Source: a virus. Taken from it: a stretch of DNA of 21,779 nucleotides. Positions 2,145 to 15,042 of the stretch are shown piece after piece. Numbering within the stretch: the stretch's first letter is position 1; each line of letters starts with the position of its first letter. Below the pieces are notes generated by a model, which saw only the letters and a list, made by a program, of their open reading frames with translations, was not told the DNA's origin and did no database searches. The translations under genes and the position numbers were made by a program. The stretch spans positions 1 to 21,779 of IMG/VR virus record IMGVR_UViG_3300025362_000051; one strand, given 5' to 3'.

Positions 2145-2488
2145 TCGGACTGAACATCAAGGTTGACATCTATCGTCCGACATTTTTAACAGATCCGGAA
2201 TGGAATGTCATAGAGACTTCTTACCCTGCACTCCCGACGTTCAGGAATGTGAGGGCGAGAATCTCAACGCTCCGAGCAGAACAGAAGGCGAGCTTACAGG
2301 CAATCGGAACAAGCGTTAGCACGACTGCCGCGTATGGTGTCTTCTTCAACTCGGATCAGGATGTTCAGATCAAAGACCACATTACCCATAACGGAAAGAC
2401 CTATGAAGTTGTCGCTCTCGATGACATGGACAAGAACGGACAGCACATGGAGGGCGTTATCGTCTTCTGGGAAGGAGTTGTTGAGTAA
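2141..2488 (+). CDS. Head-closure / head-tail joining protein
   Basis: The product is about 115 residues and matches the head-tail joining family (HK97 gp7, SPP1 gp16 type), which closes the connector channel after packaging. Visible signs are the opening IKVDIYRPTF, the strand FRNVRARISTL, and the late segment TYEVVALDDMDKNGQHMEGV, which fits the usual small beta barrel. I chose the TTG at 2141, which overlaps the previous stop codon as TTGA and gives an N-terminus of usual length. A TTG at 2123 in the same frame would add six residues, but neither start has a strong Shine-Dalgarno sequence. Translational coupling to the connector gene is likely. Confidence 0.8.
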   Translation: MIGLNIKVDIYRPTFLTDPEWNVIETSYPALPTFRNVRARISTLRAEQKASLQAIGTSVSTTAAYGVFFNSDQDVQIKDHITHNGKTYEVVALDDMDKNGQHMEGVIVFWEGVVE

Positions 2489-3021
2489 TGGCAAGAGTTG
2501 GTGGCGGAAAGCTACTTAGCTTTGGCCCAATGGCGGGGGCGTATGTCTGGACAGACTTCAATCCTGGTCGGGTTATTGCTGTAATTGACGCCACTATCCA
2601 TTCTCGGATGGAAGCTGCTATGAAGTTGGCCGCTGCCTCGGCAAGGGACAACATGCAGGACATTACTCCTCCTTCGTCTGTTGGCGACATGCCAGCGATC
2701 GATTCTGAAACACTGAAGAGTAATATCGAGTACAAGGTCTTCGACAGCCCCAGTGAAATCATTGGGGCCTTCGGTGTCTTCAAAGACACGGCCATCGACT
2801 CGACTACCGGAAAGGTCGTGGACTTGATCTATGCCCTATATCTGGAGATTGGGACGGTCCACATGGACCCACGCCCTTGGCTGACGCTAACCGTTGCCGA
2901 AGTTTGGGACGAGTGGAAGACACTCTTCAGTATCGGAGGATCTGGCATGGGCCAAACGGCCTCTGCTAGTTTCTCGATGGGACAACGAGAAGGACATACA
3001 GCACTTGGAGGCCGATTCTAG
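2488..3021 (+). CDS. HK97 gp10-like neck/tail completion protein
   Basis: The product has 177 residues. The motif DLIYALYLEIGTVHMDPRPW near residues 110-130 is the signature of the HK97 gp10-like family, a neck or tail-completion protein that works between connector and tail terminator. A helical stretch at about 30-60 (IHSRMEAAMKLAAASARDNM) also fits. The start ATG overlaps the previous stop codon as TAATG, with AAGGAG upstream. The last ~30 residues are Gly/Ser rich and hold no recognisable element. Position in the classic neck order makes the role fairly secure; the exact contact partners are inferred from family knowledge. Confidence 0.85.
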   Translation: MARVGGGKLLSFGPMAGAYVWTDFNPGRVIAVIDATIHSRMEAAMKLAAASARDNMQDITPPSSVGDMPAIDSETLKSNIEYKVFDSPSEIIGAFGVFKDTAIDSTTGKVVDLIYALYLEIGTVHMDPRPWLTLTVAEVWDEWKTLFSIGGSGMGQTASASFSMGQREGHTALGGRF

Positions 3022-3443
3022 TGAGGAAAGATGTAAACGTTCCTTTGCTCCAAGCATTGATCGCGAAGTTGCTCGCAGCATCTGGAGTGAAAGCGATCAC
3101 GAGCACAAGAATCAGCCCTGGAAAAGATAATGAACGGGTGCCATACATTGAAGTATGTGCTCTCCCAGAAATCCCACTACACGGGATCGGGTTTGATGAA
3201 CCTGCTGGTGTACATGCCAAAGCACAAATAGCTTGCTTCACTTTGACCAAGCATGAAGGGTACGAGCTGGCTGGCGAAGTGTCGAAGGCTCTTGATGGAG
3301 AAAGCCTGACCGTTACTGGTTGGGGAACATCGCGAATAAAAGGAACTGGTATGCCGCCCACGAAGTTTGAGGTAAAGGGCAAAGTCATCTACATGACGAT
3401 ACGGCGCATCACGCTCCTGCTCGCGAATACTGATACAACGTAA
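3021..3443 (+). CDS. Tail terminator protein (DUF3168 / gp17-like)
   Basis: The product has 140 residues and probably caps the tail tube and joins it to the neck. The N-terminus holds a helix (VPLLQALIAKLLAASGVKAI), followed by the strand VPYIEVCAL, the segment AKAQIACFTLTKHEGYELAG, and a late strand KVIYMTIRRITLLL. This alpha-beta order with a central strand is usual for tail terminators. The start is a GTG that overlaps the previous TAG by one base, with GGAGG eight bases upstream. The call rests on fold pattern plus position directly before the tail tube gene; no single diagnostic motif is present. Confidence 0.72.
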   Translation: MRKDVNVPLLQALIAKLLAASGVKAITSTRISPGKDNERVPYIEVCALPEIPLHGIGFDEPAGVHAKAQIACFTLTKHEGYELAGEVSKALDGESLTVTGWGTSRIKGTGMPPTKFEVKGKVIYMTIRRITLLLANTDTT

Positions 3444-3461
3444 GTTGGAGGTGTAAGAATA

Positions 3462-3872
3462 ATGGCTGATACATTTACAGCGAAAAAAGGACATCTGGCG
3501 ACACTCACGTTCAACGCGAAGGTCGTAAATGTTCGTGGAGAAATCCGTTGCTCTGTGAACAAGGGTCTCCTTGAGATTTCCTGTATTGGAGACACGGTTG
3601 TTCCGTTCCGATCGTACACGTTCGGTCTCTACGACCAAATGAGCTTCACTGTCCCAGTACCTTGGGATAAGACAAACGATGGCATCGTAGAGATCATGGC
3701 GAGAGCGATTGACGGGGTAGCAGACACGCTGATCCTTACGGATGGAGCAAATACATTGATGTCCGGCGAGGCTCTCGTTACCTACGAGTATTCTGCTGCA
3801 ATCGATGAGATGCAGATGCTGAGCGTGACGTTTACGTTCACTGGCGCACTTACCGGCAACCTTGTGGTCTAG
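3462..3872 (+). CDS. Tail tube protein (short form)
   Basis: The product has 136 residues and is likely the main tail tube subunit. It starts at an ATG after GGAGGTG. It is nearly all beta: GHLATLTFNAKVVNVRGEI, IGDTVVPFRSYTFGLYDQMS, VEIMARAIDGVADTLILTD and the C-terminal SVTFTFTGALTGNLVV, which ends in the way usual for tail tube proteins. The opening MADTFT is the same as in the next gene, and the FRSY segment and the closing SVT...G strand also have counterparts there, so the two genes appear to be paralogues. Which one forms the tube shaft cannot be decided from sequence alone. Confidence 0.75.
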   Translation: MADTFTAKKGHLATLTFNAKVVNVRGEIRCSVNKGLLEISCIGDTVVPFRSYTFGLYDQMSFTVPVPWDKTNDGIVEIMARAIDGVADTLILTDGANTLMSGEALVTYEYSAAIDEMQMLSVTFTFTGALTGNLVV

Positions 3873-3889
3873 GAGGAGGTGAATAGCTG

Positions 3890-4831
3890 ATGGCTGACAC
3901 TTTTACTCCTGTAAGCGGGTATCTGGCGGGGATTTACCGATCCCTCGGTACTGTTGTTGGTGCCGTAGAGAAGCATCAGCTCCTCGTAGACGGCGATTTT
4001 GCTACCGGAGCCCTTGCCCCAAATTGGGACGACGACAGTGTGGCGGCTTCTACTGCTGTTCCTACCGCTCTTAAAGGGTGGGACGAGCGTTCAATCGGGT
4101 TGGTGCTGAACGATGATGGCACGAACCTTGCTGGGGTCTCCCAGCTAGTTGCATTCGACACTAAGATTACAGCAGCTCAGGCATTGACTCACAGAATTAT
4201 TGTGAGTTGCTGGGCAAGATTTGACGCAGCATCAGATGAGGCTACCCTCAAGGTAACTCTGCAGGATGCCGCACATGCGAGCCTTGGTACTGCCTCTGTC
4301 ACGATGATCTCGGCGCACCCGTTCTATGACGACGGCACCGGATACGGATGTGACGGCTACTTCAGTGTGGCTATTGATGCGGTAGCAGACACAGAGGAAA
4401 TTGATGTAGAGATCTACTCAAATGCTGCTGCTGCACAAATCGTGAACATCAGTAACGTCCAATTGGCGATCGTAGAACAAGTTGCTGGCGCATTTGGCCA
4501 AGTAGCTATGCCGATCGGGCACGATCTCGAAGAGTCCACTACGTTTGCTACGGCAGACGATGGATTCAGATCGTATGCTACCACCTTGATAAAGCAAGGC
4601 GCTCTTACGTTCCCGTCGTTCTGGGTTCAAGAGGAGTCGATGGCTCACGAGCAGAGTACCGAAGACGAGCTATACGTCGTCTTGTGGACTCAGAAAGCAA
4701 CAAATACATTAGATAGGTTTGAATTCCTTGGAAAAGTAAGTGGAATTGAATGGGCCGCGCCTGTTGGCGAACTGCAGAAGGGATCGGTAACGATCGTTGC
4801 AAACGGCCTGATTGGATACGCGCACATCTAG
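3890..4831 (+). CDS. Tail-tube-like protein with inserted carbohydrate-binding-like domain
   Basis: The product has 313 residues. The ATG follows a very strong Shine-Dalgarno sequence (AGGAGGAGGTG). Residues 1-28 and about 197-313 look like a tail tube fold related to the preceding gene: both start MADTFT, both carry FRSY, and both close with a strand of the type ELQKGSVTIVANG. Between them, at about 30-195, sits a separate beta domain that opens LLVDGDFATGALAPNWDD and resembles CBM4/9-like jelly-roll modules (N-terminal 'DGDFATG...W' signature, then alternating strands such as IIVSCWARFD and ATLKVTLQDA). It may decorate the tail or bind sugars. Domain identity comes from pattern only. Confidence 0.75.
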   Translation: MADTFTPVSGYLAGIYRSLGTVVGAVEKHQLLVDGDFATGALAPNWDDDSVAASTAVPTALKGWDERSIGLVLNDDGTNLAGVSQLVAFDTKITAAQALTHRIIVSCWARFDAASDEATLKVTLQDAAHASLGTASVTMISAHPFYDDGTGYGCDGYFSVAIDAVADTEEIDVEIYSNAAAAQIVNISNVQLAIVEQVAGAFGQVAMPIGHDLEESTTFATADDGFRSYATTLIKQGALTFPSFWVQEESMAHEQSTEDELYVVLWTQKATNTLDRFEFLGKVSGIEWAAPVGELQKGSVTIVANGLIGYAHI

Positions 4832-4838
4832 GAGAGAA

Positions 4839-5549
4839 ATGGGTAAAAAATCGAACCTGCTACGGACATTTGAAAATGCTTCTAAAGAAACTCACGAACG
4901 CACGTTTAAGTTTAAGATCTCGGGCGAGGGGACAGATGTTGTGTGTCCCCGCCTGAGCCTTAAGAATCAGGCTGTCTTCGAGAGGAAGATGCTTGAAAAG
5001 GAAGGGAAGGAATGGTCTGGATTCAGCCTGTCTATGCTGAAGAACTCTTCGGCAATGAAGATGGCTGAGTGCTCGGCCAACGTGCTGAAAGAACTTCGGG
5101 AAGAAGGCGTTCCAGAGAAGTTTGAGACAGAGCAACTGGCAAAGATGTACATGACGGAATTCCAGGCTAGGCTGATAGCCAAGTTCAATCCGTATGCACA
5201 GGTCATGTTCGGCGGCTTCACGAAGGACGACCAGATCTATGCGGTGACGATGGCGCTTCAGCAGTATTACGGGGACTCTGAGACCAAGACAACGGGCAGA
5301 GGAGATAGCAGGAAAGACGAAGAGATCGTCATTGACGATAACTTTGCCAGAGTGATCTTCGACGCGCAAATGGATCATCTCGAAACCATGTTCCTATGGG
5401 CAATCGGCCTTGCTGATATTCCTGATGGAACTGACACAGAAGAACTTGCCAAGAGCCTAAGGGAATTAGGTGGTTCGGGAAACGTGACGGGGTCGACGAA
5501 GAAATCAGCTACAGAAGGGAAGTCAACTACGAAGACTACATCCCCATAA
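4839..5549 (+). CDS. Tail assembly chaperone, zero-frame product
   Basis: The product has 236 residues and is the gpG-type chaperone that coats the tape measure protein during tail assembly. I chose ATG 4839, which has GGAGAG just upstream; an in-frame TTG at 4812 lies inside the preceding gene and lacks a Shine-Dalgarno sequence. The body is helical and charged, with a compact domain to about residue 200 and a low-complexity Ser/Thr/Lys tail (STKKSATEGKSTTKTTSP) that looks like an unstructured end. Its place directly before the tape measure gene, and the slippery site at 5477-5483, support the role. Most ribosomes should end here at TAA; a fraction should shift into the -1 extension. Confidence 0.85.
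   Translation: MGKKSNLLRTFENASKETHERTFKFKISGEGTDVVCPRLSLKNQAVFERKMLEKEGKEWSGFSLSMLKNSSAMKMAECSANVLKELREEGVPEKFETEQLAKMYMTEFQARLIAKFNPYAQVMFGGFTKDDQIYAVTMALQQYYGDSETKTTGRGDSRKDEEIVIDDNFARVIFDAQMDHLETMFLWAIGLADIPDGTDTEELAKSLRELGGSGNVTGSTKKSATEGKSTTKTTSP
5477..5483 (+). promoter_or_regulatory. Slippery heptamer GGGAAAC, -1 ribosomal frameshift site
   Basis: In the chaperone frame the bases read as G GGA AAC, which is an exact X XXY YYZ heptamer. A -1 slip repairs as GGG AAA and leads into a frame open to 5803. The overlap in which a shift could occur runs from 5435 to 5549, and this is the only perfect heptamer I found in it. Downstream I see only a weak stem starting at the end of the site (CGTGA pairing with TCGACG, one bulge), not a convincing stimulator. 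Confidence 0.82.
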
Positions 5550-5803
5550 TTATAGAGCACTATCCCCAATATGATCTTGAAACTGTTTTTGAACTTGATG
5601 ACATCCAGTTTGCCTTTCTTGTGAGGGGCATGGATTCGAACTTTAGACTTGAACGTGCAAATACCCTTCCGGGGATGATCGATGGAGACGGCATGAAGTC
5701 TGTGGCTGGAGCAGCGCCACACATCATGACGGACAGTGACGAGACATTTGAATGGCTGCAAGAGCAGTGTGAGGCAAAGGGACTGATACCCCCGGAGAGA
5801 TGA
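5483..5803 (+). CDS. Tail assembly chaperone -1 frameshift extension (gpGT-like)
   Basis: This frame is open from 5435 but has no ATG, GTG or TTG in a good context before 5621, so it is best read as the second half of a fusion made by -1 frameshifting. After the slip it adds about 106 residues, giving a fused protein near 321 residues. The sequence is clearly protein-like before the first ATG: EEISYRREVNYEDYIPIIIE and YPQYDLETVFELDDIQFAFL, then a short helical end (ETFEWLQEQCEAKGLIPPER). In other long-tailed phages the extension links the tape measure to tail tube subunits. The stop is separated by one base from the tape measure ATG. Internal start at 5621 cannot be excluded. Confidence 0.8.
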   Translation, partial: RDGVDEEISYRREVNYEDYIPIIIEHYPQYDLETVFELDDIQFAFLVRGMDSNFRLERANTLPGMIDGDGMKSVAGAAPHIMTDSDETFEWLQEQCEAKGLIPPER

Positions 5804-5804
5804 C

Positions 5805-8800
5805 ATGGCGGAAGGGAACGTTTTAGGCGTAGCGATTGTAAAGCTGATGCTGCAAAAGGCTGGCTTCAACGCTGATATGGCGAACGTCAAGCAACAAACG
5901 ACAAAGTCTATTGGCGGTATCACGTCAGCCGTGTCTAAGCTGGCTGGCGTCGGTGTAGGCCTCTATGCCCTCAAGCAAGCAGTCATGACCGTTCACAAGG
6001 CGTTCGTTGACTTCGATCGCGACATGCACAACATTTGGACGCTGACAGACCAAACGAAAGAACAGGTTGTCGAGCTTTCGAATGAACTCAGGAACCTAGC
6101 CTGGGAGTACAACGTCACAAGTTCCGAGGCCGCTAAGGCCATGTATCAGATCTACTCAGCTACGTTCTACGGCGCTGACGCCATGAAGATCCTAGAATCA
6201 TCTGCCCGTGGCGCAGCCGCTGGACTCACAGACGTATTCACAGCAGCAAACATGGGCACTACTGTCCTCAATGCGTATGGGATGGAAGCTAAAGAGATAG
6301 CCCATGTTAATGACCTGTTATTTACTGCTATAAGATACGGAAAGACAACATACGGAGAACTAGCAAGCCAGTTCGGGCGGCTGGCAGGGGTCGCAGCTCC
6401 TGTCGGCGCTAGTATTGAAGAGATGGCAGCGGCTATTGCAACCCTTACTAGACAGGGAATTGCAACGGATTGGGCAGTCACGTCGCTACGCCAGACGTTG
6501 ATGAAAATGCTTCAGCCCACCAAGGAACTTGAGAAGGCAATCAACGATCTTGGATATTCCTCTGGCGGAGCAATGATCAAGGCAGTTGGATTTGCCAATT
6601 CAATCAAACAGGTAACTGACTGGGCCGCTGCAAACGGCGTCGAGATCAGCAAGATGTTCACAAATGTCCGTGCTGTCACAGCCGTTTTGCCGTTGGCGAC
6701 TACTGCCGCTGCTGGGTTTGCGAAAGATCTACAGCGCATGGCTGACGCCGGCGGAGCAGCCGACGATGCGTTCTTCAAGCAGACAGGATCGTGGGCATAC
6801 CAGCTTGAAATCCTGAAGACGCGGCTAAACGACATTGGGATCACGCTCGGTAAGCTCGTTACACCAGCGATTACTGGGTTCCTAGAGGCAATCATGGTGC
6901 TCCTAAGACCTATCGGGTTATTGGCCGAAGGGTTAGAGCTTATTGGTGGCCCAAATCTTCTTAGATACGTCGTTACCCTAGGAACACTAGCGGTAGGATT
7001 CCGTCTCCTAGCGAAGAGTATCAGAATGGCCGCTGGAGCTATGGGGCAAATGATGCTGAGCGGAGGGTTGCTTGGTAGGTCATTGCGTGGGTTGACTGAT
7101 GTTGGAGCTAAAGTTCTAGGGACAGCGTCGTGGTCTAAGGGCCTTGCTGGAGGACTTGGTATGGCAGGTATTGGGCTTGGCGGAGCAGCTCTGGCATTGA
7201 AAGGCCTCGTGAACCTAAATTTGGCGTTCGGCGAGCTTACGGGTGCCGAGGCAACAAAGAAAGCCATTGAAGGGGCCCTAGAGTCTGCTGTAGGTGGAGT
7301 TATTGCTGGGGCAATGGTCGGCAAGTTATTAGGATTTGGAATGCTTGGCTCTACTGGTATTGGTGCTGCAGTTGGTGTTGCCGCTGGTCTTTCGATCTAT
7401 GTCTACCACATCATCAAAAAAGAAGCTGACGACAGGGCGGCTAGTGTTGATATAGTTAGTAGAACGATGGCAACTTATGGAGATTTGCCACTTGAGATGC
7501 CAGCAACCGCAGAGTCTATAACCGCACTTAGGGACGAGCTTAGCCTGTTTAACCCGGAGATAGAAAGGACAAAAGAGTTCTTTGGAGCGACCACCACCGC
7601 TATAGAGCTAATGTATAACAGGGTAGGAATTTCAGCAAGAGACTTGCATGGCACATATAAGCTGAAACCAGAGTACAGCGGAGTTATCACGCTCGCTGGT
7701 ATTACAGGAATCGAGGTGCCTGTAGAAGATGTTGAGGCCGCCGCGATGTTATGGAACCGTGCGCTGATTGACGTAACCATTGGGTCATTTGCGGACCTTA
7801 CGAAATCAACCAGAAGATTATTGCCGAAAGGGATGCAAGATTACATCGACGAGATGGACAAGATAGCTGGTGAGGCGATATTAGACGCGCAGTGGCCTGA
7901 TTTCGGCGCGGCTATAACCGACATCATGAGAGAATGGGGCGAATCTGTAAATGCAGAGATCGACACTACCAAGATGGGAGTCCTTGTTGAGATAATGGGC
8001 AGATCGAAAGCTGCATTTGGCGCTTTAGGTGAGAAGCCAGTAGATGATATTAACAAGACAGCAGAAGAAAACGAAGCTGCAATGAATGCTTGGCTTGCTG
8101 CCGGGAAAGCTGCCGCTGAGTATAGCACAACAGCCCAAGAAGTATTCACCAACCTAACTAAAGACATGAGCGAGGATGAGAGGATAGCCACATTCTTCAA
8201 AATAGTCCTTAGCCTTGCAGGTGATACAGCAACGAATCTTGCTTATGTGGCAGAGTTGATGGAGGTTACGACACAAGAAACGGTCGATAAGGTCATGGCT
8301 ATCATCAACGAAGGTCTTGCGCCTCCCGCCGCCCCAGACGTTCCGGTGGCTACAGTACAGGAACAAATTGACAAAGCCAGTGCGGCATTTGATGAGGCGT
8401 TTGAAGCATTCCAGACAGGCGACGGGTTGCTCGGACAATCAGTAACTCAACTAGAGGCAATGAGAACGACAGCTAGCGCGTGGGCAGCAAATGCAGAGGC
8501 GGCTGAAATAGGGACAAGAGAGTATGCCGAGGCTGTAAGAGAACTTGCAGACCGGATGGCGGAACTTGTTGCTGCTGGTGCGGACGAAGCGATGGCGGCG
8601 ATAATTGTCAAATTCAATGCCGCTAAGAAGGCGTATCTAGCGGCGGCTGATGGGTCTCTTGAACAGGCTGTTGCCGTGAAAGATCTAACATCAGTTTCAG
8701 AGGAACTCTACAAGCTACAAGTCCTTCTTGGCCTCAGCGCGGAAGACTTGGCTGGCGACTGGAAGGATATGGCAGCCTGGCTTGACTCAATCGGGATCAA

Positions 8801-10946
8801 GATACAAAGCATTGTTGCGCTAGACTTTGCCGAACAGATTGGCGTGCTGCAGGCTGCGTTATCCGAAGCGATCAGTTCAGGAAACATAGCCGCGCAGGTT
8901 GCGGCTTTGTCCGGTCTACAGTCTGTTTATGGCAGCATGGTCGGGAGCCTGGACATGCTATCAGCCGCTGGAATGGGTGGATCAGAAGTCCTCAACGTCC
9001 TGATCCTCAGCCTTGAGAATCTGTACGGGTTTACGAGAGAGGCTGCTGGCGGAGTTGATGAGCTAGGTGACGCGATCGACGGGATGCTTGACGCTATCTC
9101 TGGAGCTATTAGCGAGTTCTCTGGCTTAATCAAAGAGAAATCACCAGTTATGGGTTCAATCCTTGATATGGGCGCTTCTTTTGTCGGAGCTGCATCTACA
9201 GCAAAGACAGTATATGGCACTGGAGGAACGGTTGATGCGTCATTGGCTGCCGCTGCTGCTGGGGAAGGATTAAACGAGTTAGTGCTAACGATCACAGGTG
9301 TTGCCGCTGGATTTGGCGCATTACTATCTGTCACAGGAGCGATAGTTGGCGTATTCATGGCAATACGAGCTAATGAAGAAAGAAAGCAAGAAGAACTTGC
9401 AGCCGCTGCCGAAGAGGCAAGACAAGGACTATTGAGCATAGTTGACGCGGCAAGCTCCGCAGCTTCTGCGCTGTGGGATCTGGCACAACAAGCCGAGAGT
9501 GTCCAACGCCTTCAGTCTGCGTGGATGACGCTTCAGGAGAAGCTGATCTCTGCACTGTTCGGCTTCCTATGGCCGATTGTAGGCATCTTAGAGATGATCA
9601 CAGGGTCGTTAGAGGACAGCACAGACGCGATCGAGGAAGAGACTGAGGCACGACGGGCGAGCCTCAACGTGCCTACTGGATATAAAGTTCGTCGAACAGA
9701 ATGGCGTGCTGCGACACCTGGACAGCCTGGAGATCTGATCGAAGACGACTCATCCGTCACAGACGATATAGAGGAAACTCTGACGTGGTGGCAACAGATG
9801 GTCTTGGAATTCGGCTCTGCTCTAGAGGATGTCATCGCGCCGTTCAGAAACTTCATCAACACGCTTAATGCTGCATGGGAATCCATCGCACCGGCAATTG
9901 TCCAAGCGGCAATCCCAGTATTAGACACATTCGGATGGACGCTGGATCAACTTGGAGGCTGGATTACTGATATCTTGGCACCAGACCTTGAGAAGTTTGC
10001 CGAGGGATTCGAGACATTCTGGACTGACAAGGTAGACCCATTCTGGAAAGATGACATGGGTCCAAAAGTAGCTGAATGGTTCAATAGAATCTATAGTTGG
10101 ATCGAGCCAGTTCTCGAATGGCTTGAAGGACCATTCTGGGATTGGTTGTCAGGTCCAGTGTGGGAAGCAGTTCAGCCTTACGTCGAAGACGTGCTAGAGA
10201 TGTTCGAGGATCTTGGCAAGTGGGTCGCTATGCACTGGGATGACATCAAAGACGACCTGCTGGTAAACCTAGAGACATCACTTAGCAGCTTGGTAGACGC
10301 TATCAAGGCAGCAGTAATATGGATCTTCGATTTTCTTGGTCTTCCGAATCCGTTTGAAGGAGAGCCTGGCGGCGGAGGAATGACTTCAGAAGAGGCGTGG
10401 AACAACGCATACAACAACGACGGCACTATCACTGTAAATGAGGATGATGTAGCCCCGATAACAGGCATTGATGATGAAACATCGTTCGATGCAGAATGGG
10501 CACAGTGGCTTATAGACCATCCAAGCACAGATTCATCTGACCCAGTTGCTACGCCAACTCCCAGCACAGATTATTCTAATGGCATTCCACAATACCAGCA
10601 GGACGCGATAACAAATGCTGGCTTCGGAGGAATAATCGGGTCTACAGGCCAGTGGGTTCCTTACTCGACGTTGAACGGTGTCCCAGTAGAGCAGCTTGCT
10701 AAGGGTGGCAAACTACTAACCGATGGCCTAGTCTTCGGTCATAAGAACGAGATTGTCATGCCAGCTTCTGTCGCACCGTTGTCTGCTGGAATGGGCGGAG
10801 GAGGGTCATTCGGGCTTGTCAACCACGTCACAGTTACTCTCGACGGGCGCGTTCTCACGAAAGAGATTACGAGAGAGAAGAGATTCCAAGAGAAGATCAT
10901 GACAGGGTCTCCGAACGGTAGACGATGGGAGGCGGTTGGCGCATGA
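5805..10946 (+). CDS. Tape measure protein
   Basis: The product has 1713 residues and sets tail length; the coil is expected to fill the tail tube and be ejected with the DNA. Residues ~70-300 match the TP901/PhageMin_Tail core, with WEYNVTSSEAAKAMYQIYSA, AANMGTTVLNAYGM, and GVAAPVGASIEEMAAAIATL. Hydrophobic, glycine-rich segments occur at ~485-535 and ~1158-1190 and could cross the host membrane. Long alanine-rich helices fill ~700-1150. The stretch ~1310-1500 is unusually rich in tryptophan and acidic residues. The C-terminus has the common glycine run followed by a beta segment (VNHVTVTLDGRVLTKEI). I see no peptidase or lysozyme motif. By the usual rule of about 0.15 nm per residue the tail would be near 250 nm. 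Confidence 0.95.
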   Translation: MAEGNVLGVAIVKLMLQKAGFNADMANVKQQTTKSIGGITSAVSKLAGVGVGLYALKQAVMTVHKAFVDFDRDMHNIWTLTDQTKEQVVELSNELRNLAWEYNVTSSEAAKAMYQIYSATFYGADAMKILESSARGAAAGLTDVFTAANMGTTVLNAYGMEAKEIAHVNDLLFTAIRYGKTTYGELASQFGRLAGVAAPVGASIEEMAAAIATLTRQGIATDWAVTSLRQTLMKMLQPTKELEKAINDLGYSSGGAMIKAVGFANSIKQVTDWAAANGVEISKMFTNVRAVTAVLPLATTAAAGFAKDLQRMADAGGAADDAFFKQTGSWAYQLEILKTRLNDIGITLGKLVTPAITGFLEAIMVLLRPIGLLAEGLELIGGPNLLRYVVTLGTLAVGFRLLAKSIRMAAGAMGQMMLSGGLLGRSLRGLTDVGAKVLGTASWSKGLAGGLGMAGIGLGGAALALKGLVNLNLAFGELTGAEATKKAIEGALESAVGGVIAGAMVGKLLGFGMLGSTGIGAAVGVAAGLSIYVYHIIKKEADDRAASVDIVSRTMATYGDLPLEMPATAESITALRDELSLFNPEIERTKEFFGATTTAIELMYNRVGISARDLHGTYKLKPEYSGVITLAGITGIEVPVEDVEAAAMLWNRALIDVTIGSFADLTKSTRRLLPKGMQDYIDEMDKIAGEAILDAQWPDFGAAITDIMREWGESVNAEIDTTKMGVLVEIMGRSKAAFGALGEKPVDDINKTAEENEAAMNAWLAAGKAAAEYSTTAQEVFTNLTKDMSEDERIATFFKIVLSLAGDTATNLAYVAELMEVTTQETVDKVMAIINEGLAPPAAPDVPVATVQEQIDKASAAFDEAFEAFQTGDGLLGQSVTQLEAMRTTASAWAANAEAAEIGTREYAEAVRELADRMAELVAAGADEAMAAIIVKFNAAKKAYLAAADGSLEQAVAVKDLTSVSEELYKLQVLLGLSAEDLAGDWKDMAAWLDSIGIKIQSIVALDFAEQIGVLQAALSEAISSGNIAAQVAALSGLQSVYGSMVGSLDMLSAAGMGGSEVLNVLILSLENLYGFTREAAGGVDELGDAIDGMLDAISGAISEFSGLIKEKSPVMGSILDMGASFVGAASTAKTVYGTGGTVDASLAAAAAGEGLNELVLTITGVAAGFGALLSVTGAIVGVFMAIRANEERKQEELAAAAEEARQGLLSIVDAASSAASALWDLAQQAESVQRLQSAWMTLQEKLISALFGFLWPIVGILEMITGSLEDSTDAIEEETEARRASLNVPTGYKVRRTEWRAATPGQPGDLIEDDSSVTDDIEETLTWWQQMVLEFGSALEDVIAPFRNFINTLNAAWESIAPAIVQAAIPVLDTFGWTLDQLGGWITDILAPDLEKFAEGFETFWTDKVDPFWKDDMGPKVAEWFNRIYSWIEPVLEWLEGPFWDWLSGPVWEAVQPYVEDVLEMFEDLGKWVAMHWDDIKDDLLVNLETSLSSLVDAIKAAVIWIFDFLGLPNPFEGEPGGGGMTSEEAWNNAYNNDGTITVNEDDVAPITGIDDETSFDAEWAQWLIDHPSTDSSDPVATPTPSTDYSNGIPQYQQDAITNAGFGGIIGSTGQWVPYSTLNGVPVEQLAKGGKLLTDGLVFGHKNEIVMPASVAPLSAGMGGGGSFGLVNHVTVTLDGRVLTKEITREKRFQEKIMTGSPNGRRWEAVGA

Positions 10947-12484
10947 GAACCATTGTTGGAGCTACAGACAAGGTATCAGCCAGCTTGCGCGTAACTGTGA
11001 AGGATCATGGCGACAACTGGCGAGACATCAGTGCGAGGGTGAAAAGCCTATCCTATTCTGACGACATGGAATCCGATTCGTGTTCTGTCTCAATCAGCAT
11101 CAGGAACCAGTACAGTGCCTATGTCAGCACGACGCCTAATGTCAATCTCGATCCATTAGACGAAGACTCCGACTTCAACAAGGTGTCGGCAGTCTACTAC
11201 CCGCTTCTTGCACGCTACAACGAGATCAAGGTTGAAGTGACTAAGAATGCTGGCGTCAACTGGTATGAGATATTCAGAGGCTATGTAGGCCCAGGGAATG
11301 TGATCATCGACACTGACGTTGAGGGCGACGACACGATAACAGTGAAGCCTGTCGACACGTCATTCCCGTACAAAGAGTTCTATTTCTACGACCCGCTTAT
11401 CTACAGAGATGCAGACGCTGTTTCCATCATGGGGCAGATGTTTGCCGACCATAAGTTCACGCAGTCGATCGTTGAGACAGACGCGCCAGGATTCCATGTT
11501 GAGGAATACAAGACTGGCGAGATCAACATCTGGGAATCTCAGCAGAAACTGCTTGAGCCAACTGGCTACATCTACAGAATTAAGTGGGATTCAGGTTCAT
11601 CTTCGTTCAAGCCGACTGTCTATGACCCTCTCAGGACGAACACGACACCTGACTGGGTGTGCGACGGAGACTTCAAGCATCGCAAGGTCGATCTTGACGA
11701 GTCTGACGTTAGATCAGAGGTCGTGATCTTCTATCGGCTGAGAGATGTCGGCACGCTAAAGACGTTCCAACTATCGAATGATTCAGCGCGGTTGAAGTAT
11801 GGCATCCCTGACGGCAGTGGAGGGCGACTACACAAGACAATGTGGTATCTCACGCAGGGCATTGGTGCCAGGCACTCAATGATCGACATGGTGAGTGAGG
11901 CACAGACGCTCTGTGAATACATGTTGCACGATCTCGAAGAGCCAGCGCCTGACATAGAAATCCAGCTTCCATACATCCATCCTGGCATCGAGGCGCACGA
12001 TCTGATTAGCTTCGTTGGTCGCGACTACACTGCGCTGGTTGGCGTGATGGGCGTTAGCTGGAGCATCGACGTTCAGAACATGGTTGGTTCTACGACCATC
12101 AAGGGAACAGTCGACAGAGTGATTGGTCAGTACCGTAGATGGACGGCCAGAGATGCTAGATCATCTGAGGTTAGGGACGCGCAATTGCTGGCAGACCTCC
12201 AGGGCGATGGATTTAGGCCGCCAAGGCCGGTTGGCATCACATCGCGTTCATACATGGGTAGGGATGCTTCAACAGGGAAAGAGACCACAATAACGATGTT
12301 CCAGGTTTCCGAAGTAGAAGTGTGGGATCGTGGTGGCTACATGTGGAAATGGTGGCTTGCTGGCGAGAACAAAGTACAAATTGAATACACGGCTGATCCG
12401 AAGCTGCTTCTTCAGGGATTGCCTTCTGGACAAACAGCCAAGGCTGAATGCTACGTTTATGATTGGAGCCACACAGGAGGTTGA
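10943..12484 (+). CDS. Tail tip / baseplate hub-like protein
   Basis: The product has 513 residues from the ATG at 10943, which overlaps the tape measure stop codon as ATGA and has GGGAGG upstream; an ATG at 10925 would add six residues without a better ribosome site. It follows the tape measure as distal tail and tail-tip proteins usually do. The first ~130 residues are beta-rich (SASLRVTVKDHGDNWRDISA, then WYEIFRGYVGPGNVIID), like the N-terminal part of Tal/gp27-type hubs, and the middle includes IWESQQKLLEPTGYIYRIKW and a later beta domain with LVGVMGVSWSI. The last ~90 residues look like a separate beta domain. No enzyme motif is visible. The precise class (Dit or Tal) is uncertain. Confidence 0.75.
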   Translation: MRTIVGATDKVSASLRVTVKDHGDNWRDISARVKSLSYSDDMESDSCSVSISIRNQYSAYVSTTPNVNLDPLDEDSDFNKVSAVYYPLLARYNEIKVEVTKNAGVNWYEIFRGYVGPGNVIIDTDVEGDDTITVKPVDTSFPYKEFYFYDPLIYRDADAVSIMGQMFADHKFTQSIVETDAPGFHVEEYKTGEINIWESQQKLLEPTGYIYRIKWDSGSSSFKPTVYDPLRTNTTPDWVCDGDFKHRKVDLDESDVRSEVVIFYRLRDVGTLKTFQLSNDSARLKYGIPDGSGGRLHKTMWYLTQGIGARHSMIDMVSEAQTLCEYMLHDLEEPAPDIEIQLPYIHPGIEAHDLISFVGRDYTALVGVMGVSWSIDVQNMVGSTTIKGTVDRVIGQYRRWTARDARSSEVRDAQLLADLQGDGFRPPRPVGITSRSYMGRDASTGKETTITMFQVSEVEVWDRGGYMWKWWLAGENKVQIEYTADPKLLLQGLPSGQTAKAECYVYDWSHTGG

Positions 12485-12485
12485 T

Positions 12486-12881
12486 GTGGACAAGACTGTT
12501 GAAACGATTCTGACACATGCGACATTGGCAAAAGGCGTCGAGACCGCGCTGACTGACTGCGATGAACATACCGATCTATCTCGCGTCATTTCCTTCACGC
12601 TGAGAGTTCAAATGACGTTCGACGCCGATGTGAGTGCAGACCCTACGGTGTCGATCTATGCGTCGACAGAGGCAGACAATGGCGAATACGACACGACAGC
12701 CTGGAAGACATGGACGTTCCCGCGCACGGTGTCAGAGACAGTGACGCTGCACTGGCCGGACGATGACGAGATCAAGCCGTTGCCGAAGTACATTAAGGTA
12801 TTGGTAAAGAACAACTCTGCTGACGCAGGCGATGAAGACATCACGAGCATCACTGTCAAGAAAGTTCCTTTAGCACTATGA
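12486..12881 (+). CDS. Small beta-sandwich tail protein, unknown function
   Basis: The product has 131 residues from the GTG at 12486, which has CAGGAGG five bases upstream. An upstream ATG at 12330 in the same frame lies inside the preceding gene and its added residues (Cys/Arg rich) look like an out-of-frame shadow, so I reject it. The protein is beta-rich: VISFTLRVQMTFDADV, TVSIYASTEADNGEYDTTAW, and KYIKVLVKNNSADAGDEDI. This is similar in layout to the protein at 1107-1493 (strand, DDGTY or DNGEY turn, RYVKF or KYIKV strand). It could be a tail-tip decoration or a partner of the following adsorption protein; its family is not recognised. Confidence 0.75.
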   Translation: MDKTVETILTHATLAKGVETALTDCDEHTDLSRVISFTLRVQMTFDADVSADPTVSIYASTEADNGEYDTTAWKTWTFPRTVSETVTLHWPDDDEIKPLPKYIKVLVKNNSADAGDEDITSITVKKVPLAL

Positions 12882-14413
12882 TCACATTACAACTCTGGTC
12901 TGCTATAGATAAAGAGGTGATGGACGTTGCCAGGACAGGCATGTCTGATCCATGCGAGACGGGCTCTATTGTTGTTGCATCTGCGGCGATAGCCCCTTCT
13001 GCGCCAACTTTCTCTATTGAGGCGGGAAGTGCGCAACTTATCCTTTCAATGGTTGCCCCTACGACCAAAGAGAATGGAGATAACCTGTACGCATTCAGCA
13101 AATTTGCGATCTATCATTCGTCAGAAGCGACAACTGGCGCAGGAATCGACGTAAATAATGACGCAACGTATGATGGGGTTTTCTATAGTCCAGCCACCAA
13201 CGTACACTTTGCTTGTACTGCCAAAACTTATTTCAGGATAACTGCATTAGACACTTTCAGTAATGAATCAGATCCATCGGCCGAGGATAGCGAGACTCCA
13301 GATGCCGCAGGAGGCACAACCCTACCTGAAGACGATGGTTTATGGGCACATCGGCTCGGGGTAGATTCTGTGTGGACAGAAGATTCTCCAGACACCGATT
13401 CAGTGGCCTGGTCAGGCGTTATCCTCTACTGGAAGGATAATAAATATACCATCACTAATGGCAACACAGACAAAAACTATATTTGGTGGGACTACAGCCT
13501 CTCAACGACAACATTCCAAACATCTGACACTCCTCCGACCTTGGCCCTTGAGGATGTTGTGGTTGCCTATAACCATAACGGGAAGGTCTTTTTAGCAATG
13601 TATTCTCCAATGGTGCTAACAGACTATCTTCGTTCTGGGACGATTACGTCACAATCTATTATTATGGCAGTAGAGGCAGGTCAAGGGGACGTAGAAATCA
13701 GGGCTGGAATCTCAACAGGAGATTTCGCGAATGCTGGCGGGAATCAAGGGTTTATAATTGGGCTTGATGACTCTGACGGCGACAAAGCTAAGTTATATTT
13801 TGGTGGGCCTGACGCGAATGGCCTTAATCGTTTCATGAAGTGGACGGGAAGTGTCTTAGACGTAAGCGCGGATCTTGTTTGCACTGATGACTTTTTGTTC
13901 TCCGGACTAATATCGAAACACATTTCGTATGCAGACTTCACTGGGGCTGGATTAGACGACATGACAACTAACAGTGAAGACGATTATGGAGGAACAGTCG
14001 AACGAGATTATCGTGTTCGTATTGACCTAGCTGCGGCAACAGACACATTCGAATGGTCTCATGATGGCGGGGCTTCGTATGAAGACACAGATATTCCTAT
14101 TGCTGGAGTTGCGCTAACTACAGGGTATGAACTAGAAGAGAATGTGAAAATAACATTCGGTGCGGCTACTGGGCATACCGCCACTAACTACTGGGACTTC
14201 TCAGTGGGCGGCAAATTAACGAACATTCATAATATAGCTGGTGTTTTTCAACTCTTTTCAACCACAACCATGCCTGCTGATGATACACGCATCAAGTTAG
14301 ACGGATTCGGTCAGGGAGGTGGGATAGACTTATACAGTGGACCGGCTGGTGACTCTCATGTGAACCTTCATGCTGCTGGAAGTATAAGTCTAGACGCATC
14401 GGGGGGGGCATAA
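12878..14413 (+). CDS. Tail tip / receptor-binding-type protein with fibronectin III-like domain, zero-frame product
   Basis: The zero-frame product has 511 residues and starts at an ATG that overlaps the previous stop codon by four bases. Residues ~38-140 look like a fibronectin type III domain (APSAPTFSIEAGSAQLILSM ... TYFRITALDTFSNESDPS). A middle region has several aromatic-rich beta segments (WSGVILYWKDNKYTI; VVVAYNHNGKVFLAMYS). The C-terminal part has Gly/Asp repeats typical of phage fibres (GGIDLYSGPAGDSHVNLHAA). The frame ends abruptly with GGA-stop just behind a run of eight G, while the same kind of sequence continues in the -1 frame to 14589. So this ORF is probably truncated relative to the full protein of about 570 residues. 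Role in host adsorption is inferred. Confidence 0.8.
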   Translation: MITLQLWSAIDKEVMDVARTGMSDPCETGSIVVASAAIAPSAPTFSIEAGSAQLILSMVAPTTKENGDNLYAFSKFAIYHSSEATTGAGIDVNNDATYDGVFYSPATNVHFACTAKTYFRITALDTFSNESDPSAEDSETPDAAGGTTLPEDDGLWAHRLGVDSVWTEDSPDTDSVAWSGVILYWKDNKYTITNGNTDKNYIWWDYSLSTTTFQTSDTPPTLALEDVVVAYNHNGKVFLAMYSPMVLTDYLRSGTITSQSIIMAVEAGQGDVEIRAGISTGDFANAGGNQGFIIGLDDSDGDKAKLYFGGPDANGLNRFMKWTGSVLDVSADLVCTDDFLFSGLISKHISYADFTGAGLDDMTTNSEDDYGGTVERDYRVRIDLAAATDTFEWSHDGGASYEDTDIPIAGVALTTGYELEENVKITFGAATGHTATNYWDFSVGGKLTNIHNIAGVFQLFSTTTMPADDTRIKLDGFGQGGGIDLYSGPAGDSHVNLHAAGSISLDASGGA

Positions 14414-14432
14414 CCCTCACCTCTGGTGGGGG
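14401..14432 (+). promoter_or_regulatory. G8 slippery run with downstream hairpin, candidate -1 frameshift site
   Basis: Bases 14401-14408 are eight G. In the zero frame they read G GGG GGG G, so 14401-14407 fit X XXY YYZ. The zero-frame stop TAA is at 14411-14413. A hairpin follows: 14414-14421 (CCCTCACC) pairs with 14425-14432 (GGTGGGGG) over 8 pairs, one a T-G wobble, with a three-base loop. The gap between heptamer and stem is 6 bases, within the usual range for -1 stimulators. A missed base in the G run would look the same. Confidence 0.6.
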
Positions 14433-14589
14433 GGATATAGATATAGATGCTGGTGCAGGAGACATCGTGTTAAGTATGGGCGGTGCAATCGTAATGGAAT
14501 TTGGAGGAGATACCTTAGAATTCTTAGATGTTGTGTACAACACACCATCTGCAACCGCAATTTATGGATACATACGGGTGAGTGTTTAG
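14407..14589 (+). CDS. C-terminal part of the tail adsorption protein in the -1 frame
   Basis: Reading continues in the -1 frame from the G run to a TAG at 14587 and adds about 60 residues: ITLTSGGGDIDIDAGAGDIV, then MEFGGDTLEFLDVVYNT and IYGYIRVSV. This matches the style of the zero-frame end (GSISLDASGG), with the same Gly/Asp beta repeats, so it belongs to the same protein. There is no ATG, GTG or TTG with a Shine-Dalgarno sequence that could start it alone. Its stop directly abuts the next ATG. It may be reached by programmed frameshifting, by slippage of the G run during replication, or only appear separate because of a sequencing error. Confidence 0.72.
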   Translation, partial: GITLTSGGGDIDIDAGAGDIVLSMGGAIVMEFGGDTLEFLDVVYNTPSATAIYGYIRVSV

Positions 14590-15042
14590 ATGGCAATCAC
14601 AATATCACTGGCATCAACTGGCGATACTGAGATAACGGCAAGCGGAGACATCTATCTGCGCGGCGATACGATTGATTTCTACAAGTCGGCTGCGCATCGA
14701 TTAAAGTTTTTAGGTATCTCACTAACTACAGCGGCACAAACTGCATCTGGCTGGGTATCTGTAAAGTGCAACGGCTCTAATAAGAAAATCTTCCTGACAG
14801 GAACTGACAATCGTATCCCGATTTACGCGCTCGTCACAGACACAACGTGGGTAATTTCTCATTACTACAGCGTTAATGATGTAGTTCTGGGGACTGATGG
14901 GTACTATCATCGTTGTACTAACGCGCATACATCTACCGCTGATCTTAAACCGACTACTGGGAGATTCTACCACTATTACTGGACTAGCACCTCTGCTCCA
15001 GCCGACTTAGGGAAGATAATCCTTATCCACAATTATTCATAG
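14590..15042 (+). CDS. Tail-associated protein with chitin-binding-like module
   Basis: The product has 150 residues; its ATG directly follows the TAG of the previous frame, with GGGTGA seven bases upstream. The first ~40 residues repeat the Gly/Asp fibre style of the previous protein (GDTEITASGDIYLRGDTIDF), which suggests that the two interact or derive from one fibre. Residues ~90-135 resemble a carbohydrate-binding module of the CBM5/12 type: YYSVNDVVLGTDGYYHRCTN, then AHTS...P and a closing YYW. Such modules are common at the ends of phage tail proteins and bind cell-surface sugars. There is no catalytic motif. Receptor role is inferred. Confidence 0.72.
   Translation: MAITISLASTGDTEITASGDIYLRGDTIDFYKSAAHRLKFLGISLTTAAQTASGWVSVKCNGSNKKIFLTGTDNRIPIYALVTDTTWVISHYYSVNDVVLGTDGYYHRCTNAHTSTADLKPTTGRFYHYYWTSTSAPADLGKIILIHNYS

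Follow-up and report, generated by a model that had tools for sequence, protein, structure and literature searches.

A tail-fibre-like phage gene with a probable programmed -1 ribosomal frameshift at its 3' end

The virus record IMGVR_UViG_3300025362_000051 (21,779 nucleotides, hereafter the window) contained a tail module, and a fibre-like gene in this module ended at a run of eight G residues followed by a stop codon, a hairpin, and a further open stretch in the -1 frame. The best supported explanation, to which we give a probability of about 80% from comparison of sequences, is a programmed -1 ribosomal frameshift that would end the gene in two forms, of 511 and 570 aa. A preliminary description of the window had offered this explanation together with a phase-variable G run and a missing base. 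It is now the favoured one of the three, since a diverged phage has the G8 run, the stop, the hairpin, and a homologous extension.

Setting and anatomy of the shift site

The window genes were arranged in the order chaperone-like pair, tape measure, conserved tail gene, small gene, fibre-like gene, and 150-aa gene (Table 1). Residues 352-441 of the 511-aa open reading frame (ORF) were similar to an annotated tail fibre of an E. coli phage, as well as to structural proteins of Cellulophaga phages. This partial similarity, combined with the position of the gene, loosely supports a fibre-like assignment. The 511-aa ORF matched no curated Pfam family, and its best PHROG match was weak (E 0.032). 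Therefore, the name "tail adsorption protein" used in the preliminary description is only loosely supported, and the adsorption function is putative. AlphaFold modelling of the short form gave a mean pLDDT of 35.5, too low to be used.

Table 1. Positions of the tail-module genes and of the elements of the candidate shift site in the window
Feature	Position	Strand	Details
Chaperone-like pair	4812-5803		With its own GGGAAAC
GGGAAAC, in phase, close to the end of the gene preceding the tape measure	5477-5483	+	-1 ORF to 5803
Tape-measure gene	5805-10946		PF10145
Conserved tail gene	10925-12484		
Small gene just before the fibre-like gene	12486-12881		
Fibre-like 0-frame ORF	12878-14413	+	511 aa, TAA 14411-14413; tail-fibre-like or distal tail protein, short form
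G8 run with in-phase heptamer G GGG GGG (14401-14407)	14401-14408	+	Same run at L005:225-232
28-nt island	14401-14428	+	Identical in window and L005
-1 frame extension	14407-14589	+	About 60 aa (59-60); stop TAG 14587-14589; predicted long form 570 aa
6-nt spacer GCATAA	14408-14413	+	Holds 0-frame stop TAA 14411-14413; identical in L005
Candidate stimulator	14414-14432	+	8-bp stem, 3-nt loop, CCCUCACC UCU GGUGGGGG
Next gene	14590-15042	+	150 aa; ATG right after the -1 frame stop (TAG then ATG)

The G8 run was the longest homopolymer in the window, in which the only other run of at least six G was a G7 at 14428-14434. As stated in the preliminary description, the run precedes a 0-frame stop and its first seven bases lie in phase as an X XXY YYZ heptamer. 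The 0 frame reads TCG GGG GGG GCA TAA at the site, with C-A separating G8 from TAA, and the unshifted product ends in ...DASGGA. The -1 frame reads GGG GGG GGC ATA ACC CTC and stays open to its TAG, confirming the earlier claim of a 60-residue continuation; the peptide in this frame is GGGITLTSGGGDIDID...GYIRVSV, and the predicted shifted product spans ...DASGGGITLTSGGG... across the junction. The extension had two Pfam matches below the cut-off, DUF2345 (0.02) and DUF5649 (0.043), which were set aside.

Downstream of the run, positions 14414-14421 pair with 14425-14432 around a UCU loop, as the preliminary description had proposed. The spacer required correction, since the stem begins 6 nt past the heptamer and 5 nt past the end of G8; the distance of 6 nt is within the range of 5-9 nt for X_XXZ_ZZN -1 frameshift signals. 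The window hairpin had a predicted energy of -14.0 kcal/mol and a z-score of -2.1 in a 26-nt segment, a value that is modest if taken alone, and the score was less exceptional in a segment widened to 45 nt to take in the G run (z -1.35). The main genes of the window contained six in-phase XXXYYYZ heptamers. The -1 frame stayed open beyond the 0-frame stop at three of them, namely at the tail-chaperone site (254 nt), the G8 site (176 nt), and the terminase end (53 nt). The G8 site had the strongest downstream hairpin among the window heptamers compared.

According to the proposed mechanism, most ribosomes would read through the two GGG codons and GCA, terminate at TAA, and release the short form. 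A fraction would stall at the 8-bp hairpin while GGG codons occupy both the P site and the A site, and the two Gly tRNAs would slip back simultaneously by one base and could re-pair perfectly on GGG GGG. The shifted ribosomes would then continue through GGC ATA ACC CTC to the TAG, adding a 60-residue tip that is rich in Gly, Asp, and Ile and looks like a beta-solenoid, and would terminate exactly at the start codon of the next gene. Both forms may enter the virion, and the tip may alter adsorption.

Among heptamers assayed in E. coli reporters, those rich in A and U worked best, and G_GG.G_GG.U without a stimulator gave 0.018%, which is background (PMC4066793). These values indicate that an all-G heptamer would require a stimulator, a role that the conserved hairpin fits. 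Since G-rich heptamers performed poorly in E. coli without a stimulator, the shift efficiency could be low, or the host could be unusual. We tentatively suggest that the site may set a ratio of short to long subunits, placing two kinds of tip on each virion or fibre by translational mixing and not by genetic switching.

Conservation of the site in a diverged phage

A search with the -1 peptide alone retrieved one relative, a locus (L005) in the virus contig IMGVR_UViG_3300029286_000042, which is a separate assembly of a diverged phage. The G+C content was 63% at the L005 locus versus 51% in the window. The -1 extension of L005 was 56% identical to that of the window over all 62 residues, and the last 75 residues of the 0-frame protein (window residues 437-511) were 63% identical, with both proteins ending in ...GGA*. 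L005 also had G8 in equal phase, followed by a 0-frame TAA at equal spacing. Its hairpin, CCCUCACC UCU GGUGAGGG, was a perfect 8-bp stem (-14.4 kcal/mol, z -4.7). The lone stem substitution between the phages, G to A in the 3' arm, changes U-G to U-A and keeps the pairing; because only one stem base varies, the covariation evidence is thin.

The homologue of the 150-aa next gene was 33% identical in L005, where the -1 stop and the start of the next gene overlap as ATGA. Thus, the next gene starts at the -1 frame stop in both phages.

The sequence G8CATAACCCTCACCTCTGGTG (28 nt) was identical in the window and L005, and its flanks were diverged on both sides. This island spans the slippery run, the stop, the 5' arm of the stem, the loop, and half of the 3' arm. 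At residues conserved between the two proteins, the same codon was used in 9 of 9 cases inside the island and in 21 of 68 outside it. Conservation beyond the need of the protein was tested on these two sequences by shuffling synonymous codons; none of 20,000 shuffles reached the observed identical run, which is 29 on the codon-aligned sequence (shuffle mean of 12.8, maximum of 20). In addition, a 0-frame TAA forces the codon ATA in the -1 frame. ATA accounts for 5% of the Ile codons in L005 and is nevertheless kept at the site, so the 0-frame stop itself appears to be conserved.

Past the island, the -1 frame clearly evolves as coding sequence. The differences between the window and L005 numbered 21, 16, and 33 at the first, second, and third codon positions of this frame, respectively, and the -1 peptides shared 22 of 45 residues, compared with 8 of 45 in each other frame. 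In the same stretch, the -1 frame had no stop in either phage, and the 0 frame had 6 and 1. Within the -1 ORF, just two standard start codons were conserved, an ATG 28 codons from its beginning and a GTG close to its end, which makes separate initiation unlikely.

Alternative explanations

Four other explanations fit less well, as each accounts for the two frames and leaves aside the combination of a hairpin at frameshift spacing with identical synonymous codons. The first, which we regard as unlikely, is that G8 is a phase-variable tract whose length changes during replication, so that each phage would make either the short or the long form and adsorption would be switched on or off. Eight G residues are long enough for instability, and length changes in polyG tracts are a known cause of bacterial phase variation (PMC10877375). 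Nevertheless, exactly eight G were present in both diverged phages carrying the site, and a contingency tract requires neither a hairpin nor identical synonymous codons over the 20 nt past the run.

An error made in sequencing or assembly, or a frameshift mutation that became fixed, is also quite unlikely. The true gene would then have seven G, or the phage would be a fibre mutant; one fewer G does produce a single ORF of 570 aa, and the -1 frame is clearly coding. However, the identical 8-G run and stop would have to recur in a diverged phage that was assembled separately, and this explanation leaves the conserved hairpin and codons unaccounted for, as well as the retention of the stop-forced ATA in L005 despite its rarity. 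No relative with seven or nine G in one open frame was found, and the sole homologue bearing the site has eight. Neither the phase-variable run nor the missing base of the preliminary description explains the 28 nt that are identical at synonymous positions, and both were disfavoured.

Transcriptional slippage, in which RNA polymerase would drop one G or add two and the altered mRNA would be read normally, would yield the same protein as a ribosomal shift, and a homopolymer of eight falls within the range for this process. It was considered very unlikely. Bacterial transcriptional slippage usually takes place at A or T runs, and the process needs neither a hairpin 6 nt past the heptamer nor an in-phase G GGG GGG.

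Independent initiation is hardly probable. The G run would then act as a Shine-Dalgarno sequence, and a separate small protein would start at AUA 14410-14412 or a later codon of the -1 frame. The conservation of this AUA speaks in its favour, as does an E. coli reporter in which G-rich motifs drove low-level initiation from an AUA lying about 7 nt further on (PMC4066793). However, AUA is a very poor start, the conserved ATG and GTG leave the hairpin unexplained, and the extension carries on the Gly/Asp style of the upstream protein. The shared 28 nt could also be a short recombination tract, although its borders would need to coincide exactly with those of the signal.

Known systems, relatives, and other carriers

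Virion and tail proteins extended by frameshifting are already established, including those of capsids, tail tubes, and lambda-type chaperones. The lambda-type tail assembly chaperone G/GT frameshift, reportedly described by Xu, Hendrix and Duda in 2004, resembles the predicted event in being a -1 shift at an in-phase XXXYYYZ near the 3' end of a tail gene, with a short and an extended protein. In contrast to G/GT, which lies directly upstream of the tape measure, the window gene is downstream of it and fibre-like, its heptamer is all G, and its 0-frame stop lies 3 nt past the heptamer and is followed by a strong hairpin.

The window also provides an internal comparator, as the GGGAAAC at 5477-5483 appears to be a typical tail-chaperone G/GT frameshift site, predicted from its sequence and position. 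GGGAAAC was also in phase at L007:513-519 in a related contig, with a homologous -1 peptide. Therefore, phages of this group already appear to use -1 recoding in the tail module, as far as can be predicted.

In gene 10 of phages T7 and T3 (10A/10B) and in the major capsid gene of Kuravirus, a -1 shift extends the C-terminus in a minority of copies (PMC9965538). These cases share with the window gene a -1 shift that ends a virion-protein gene and adds a C-terminal extension; they differ in that the protein is a capsid protein and the slippery sequence is another one (GGGAAAG in phage YF01). Among tail proteins extended by frameshifting, SPP1 gp17.1 and gp17.1* are both found in the virion (PMC6316719), as are both forms of MTP-TpeX in lactococcal 936 phages, where the extension is thought to aid host attachment (PMC4759559). 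In SPP1 and the 936 phages, the major tail-tube protein is extended by a +1 shift at CCC-stop, without a G heptamer or hairpin. Ribosomes are also known to slip on the G7 run of herpes simplex thymidine kinase (PMC5009743), but there the shift rescues a mutant gene of a eukaryotic virus at a low level, and the run is not a conserved programmed site. A literature search with incomplete coverage returned no programmed frameshift in a tail-fibre gene and no all-G heptamer with a conserved hairpin.

If the proposed shift occurs, virion-protein recoding would extend past capsids, tail tubes, and chaperones to a fibre-like gene, and an all-G heptamer, which is weak in E. coli tests, could serve as a selected slippery site. 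Phages usually diversify adsorption proteins via mutation, inversion, or retro-diversification; here, one genome would equip every generation with two tip variants whose ratio is fixed. Gene callers would cut such a fibre short and leave its 59-codon tip unannotated.

Viral contigs were scanned with the fibre, its C-terminus, the next gene, the upstream gene, a DNA pattern, a profile, and two C-terminal variants, and the site was found in the L005 contig only. A tblastn search of the fibre C-terminus against phages and plasmids gave no match. Three matches of the DNA pattern in genome contigs were judged to be due to chance, as these genomes had neither comparable reading frames nor a match to the fibre profile.

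The loci L007 and L008 have the upstream genes of the window in common (84% and 78%, respectively), and their fibre genes (L007:11197-12660 and L008:8954-11230) had no such site and ended in unrelated or swapped C-termini. The fibre genes share approximately their first 141 residues and then change completely, with a boundary of modular exchange just past the N-terminal domain. The small gene at window positions 12486-12881 was present twice in L007, at 8562-8957 and 10814-11197, and the second copy was fused to the end of a 656-aa protein. Additionally, the tape-measure protein of L007 (849-7022) contained an intein with a LAGLIDADG domain (PF14890, PF14528), which was absent from its counterparts in the window and L008.

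Residues 291-481 of the window fibre were 44% identical to L019 (IMGVR_UViG_3300029286_000209), a contig from the metagenome of L005. Over 145 bp within the fibre gene, the end of L019 overlaps the start of the L005 contig at 99%, and L019 ends short of the site. This overlap suggests that, just upstream of the shift site, either the assembly broke or the strains vary. In L005, positions 2275-5264 beside the tail genes encoded QueC, a phosphonate-type substrate-binding protein, a transporter permease, and a MobA-like nucleotidyltransferase, which are possible auxiliary metabolic genes or host flank.
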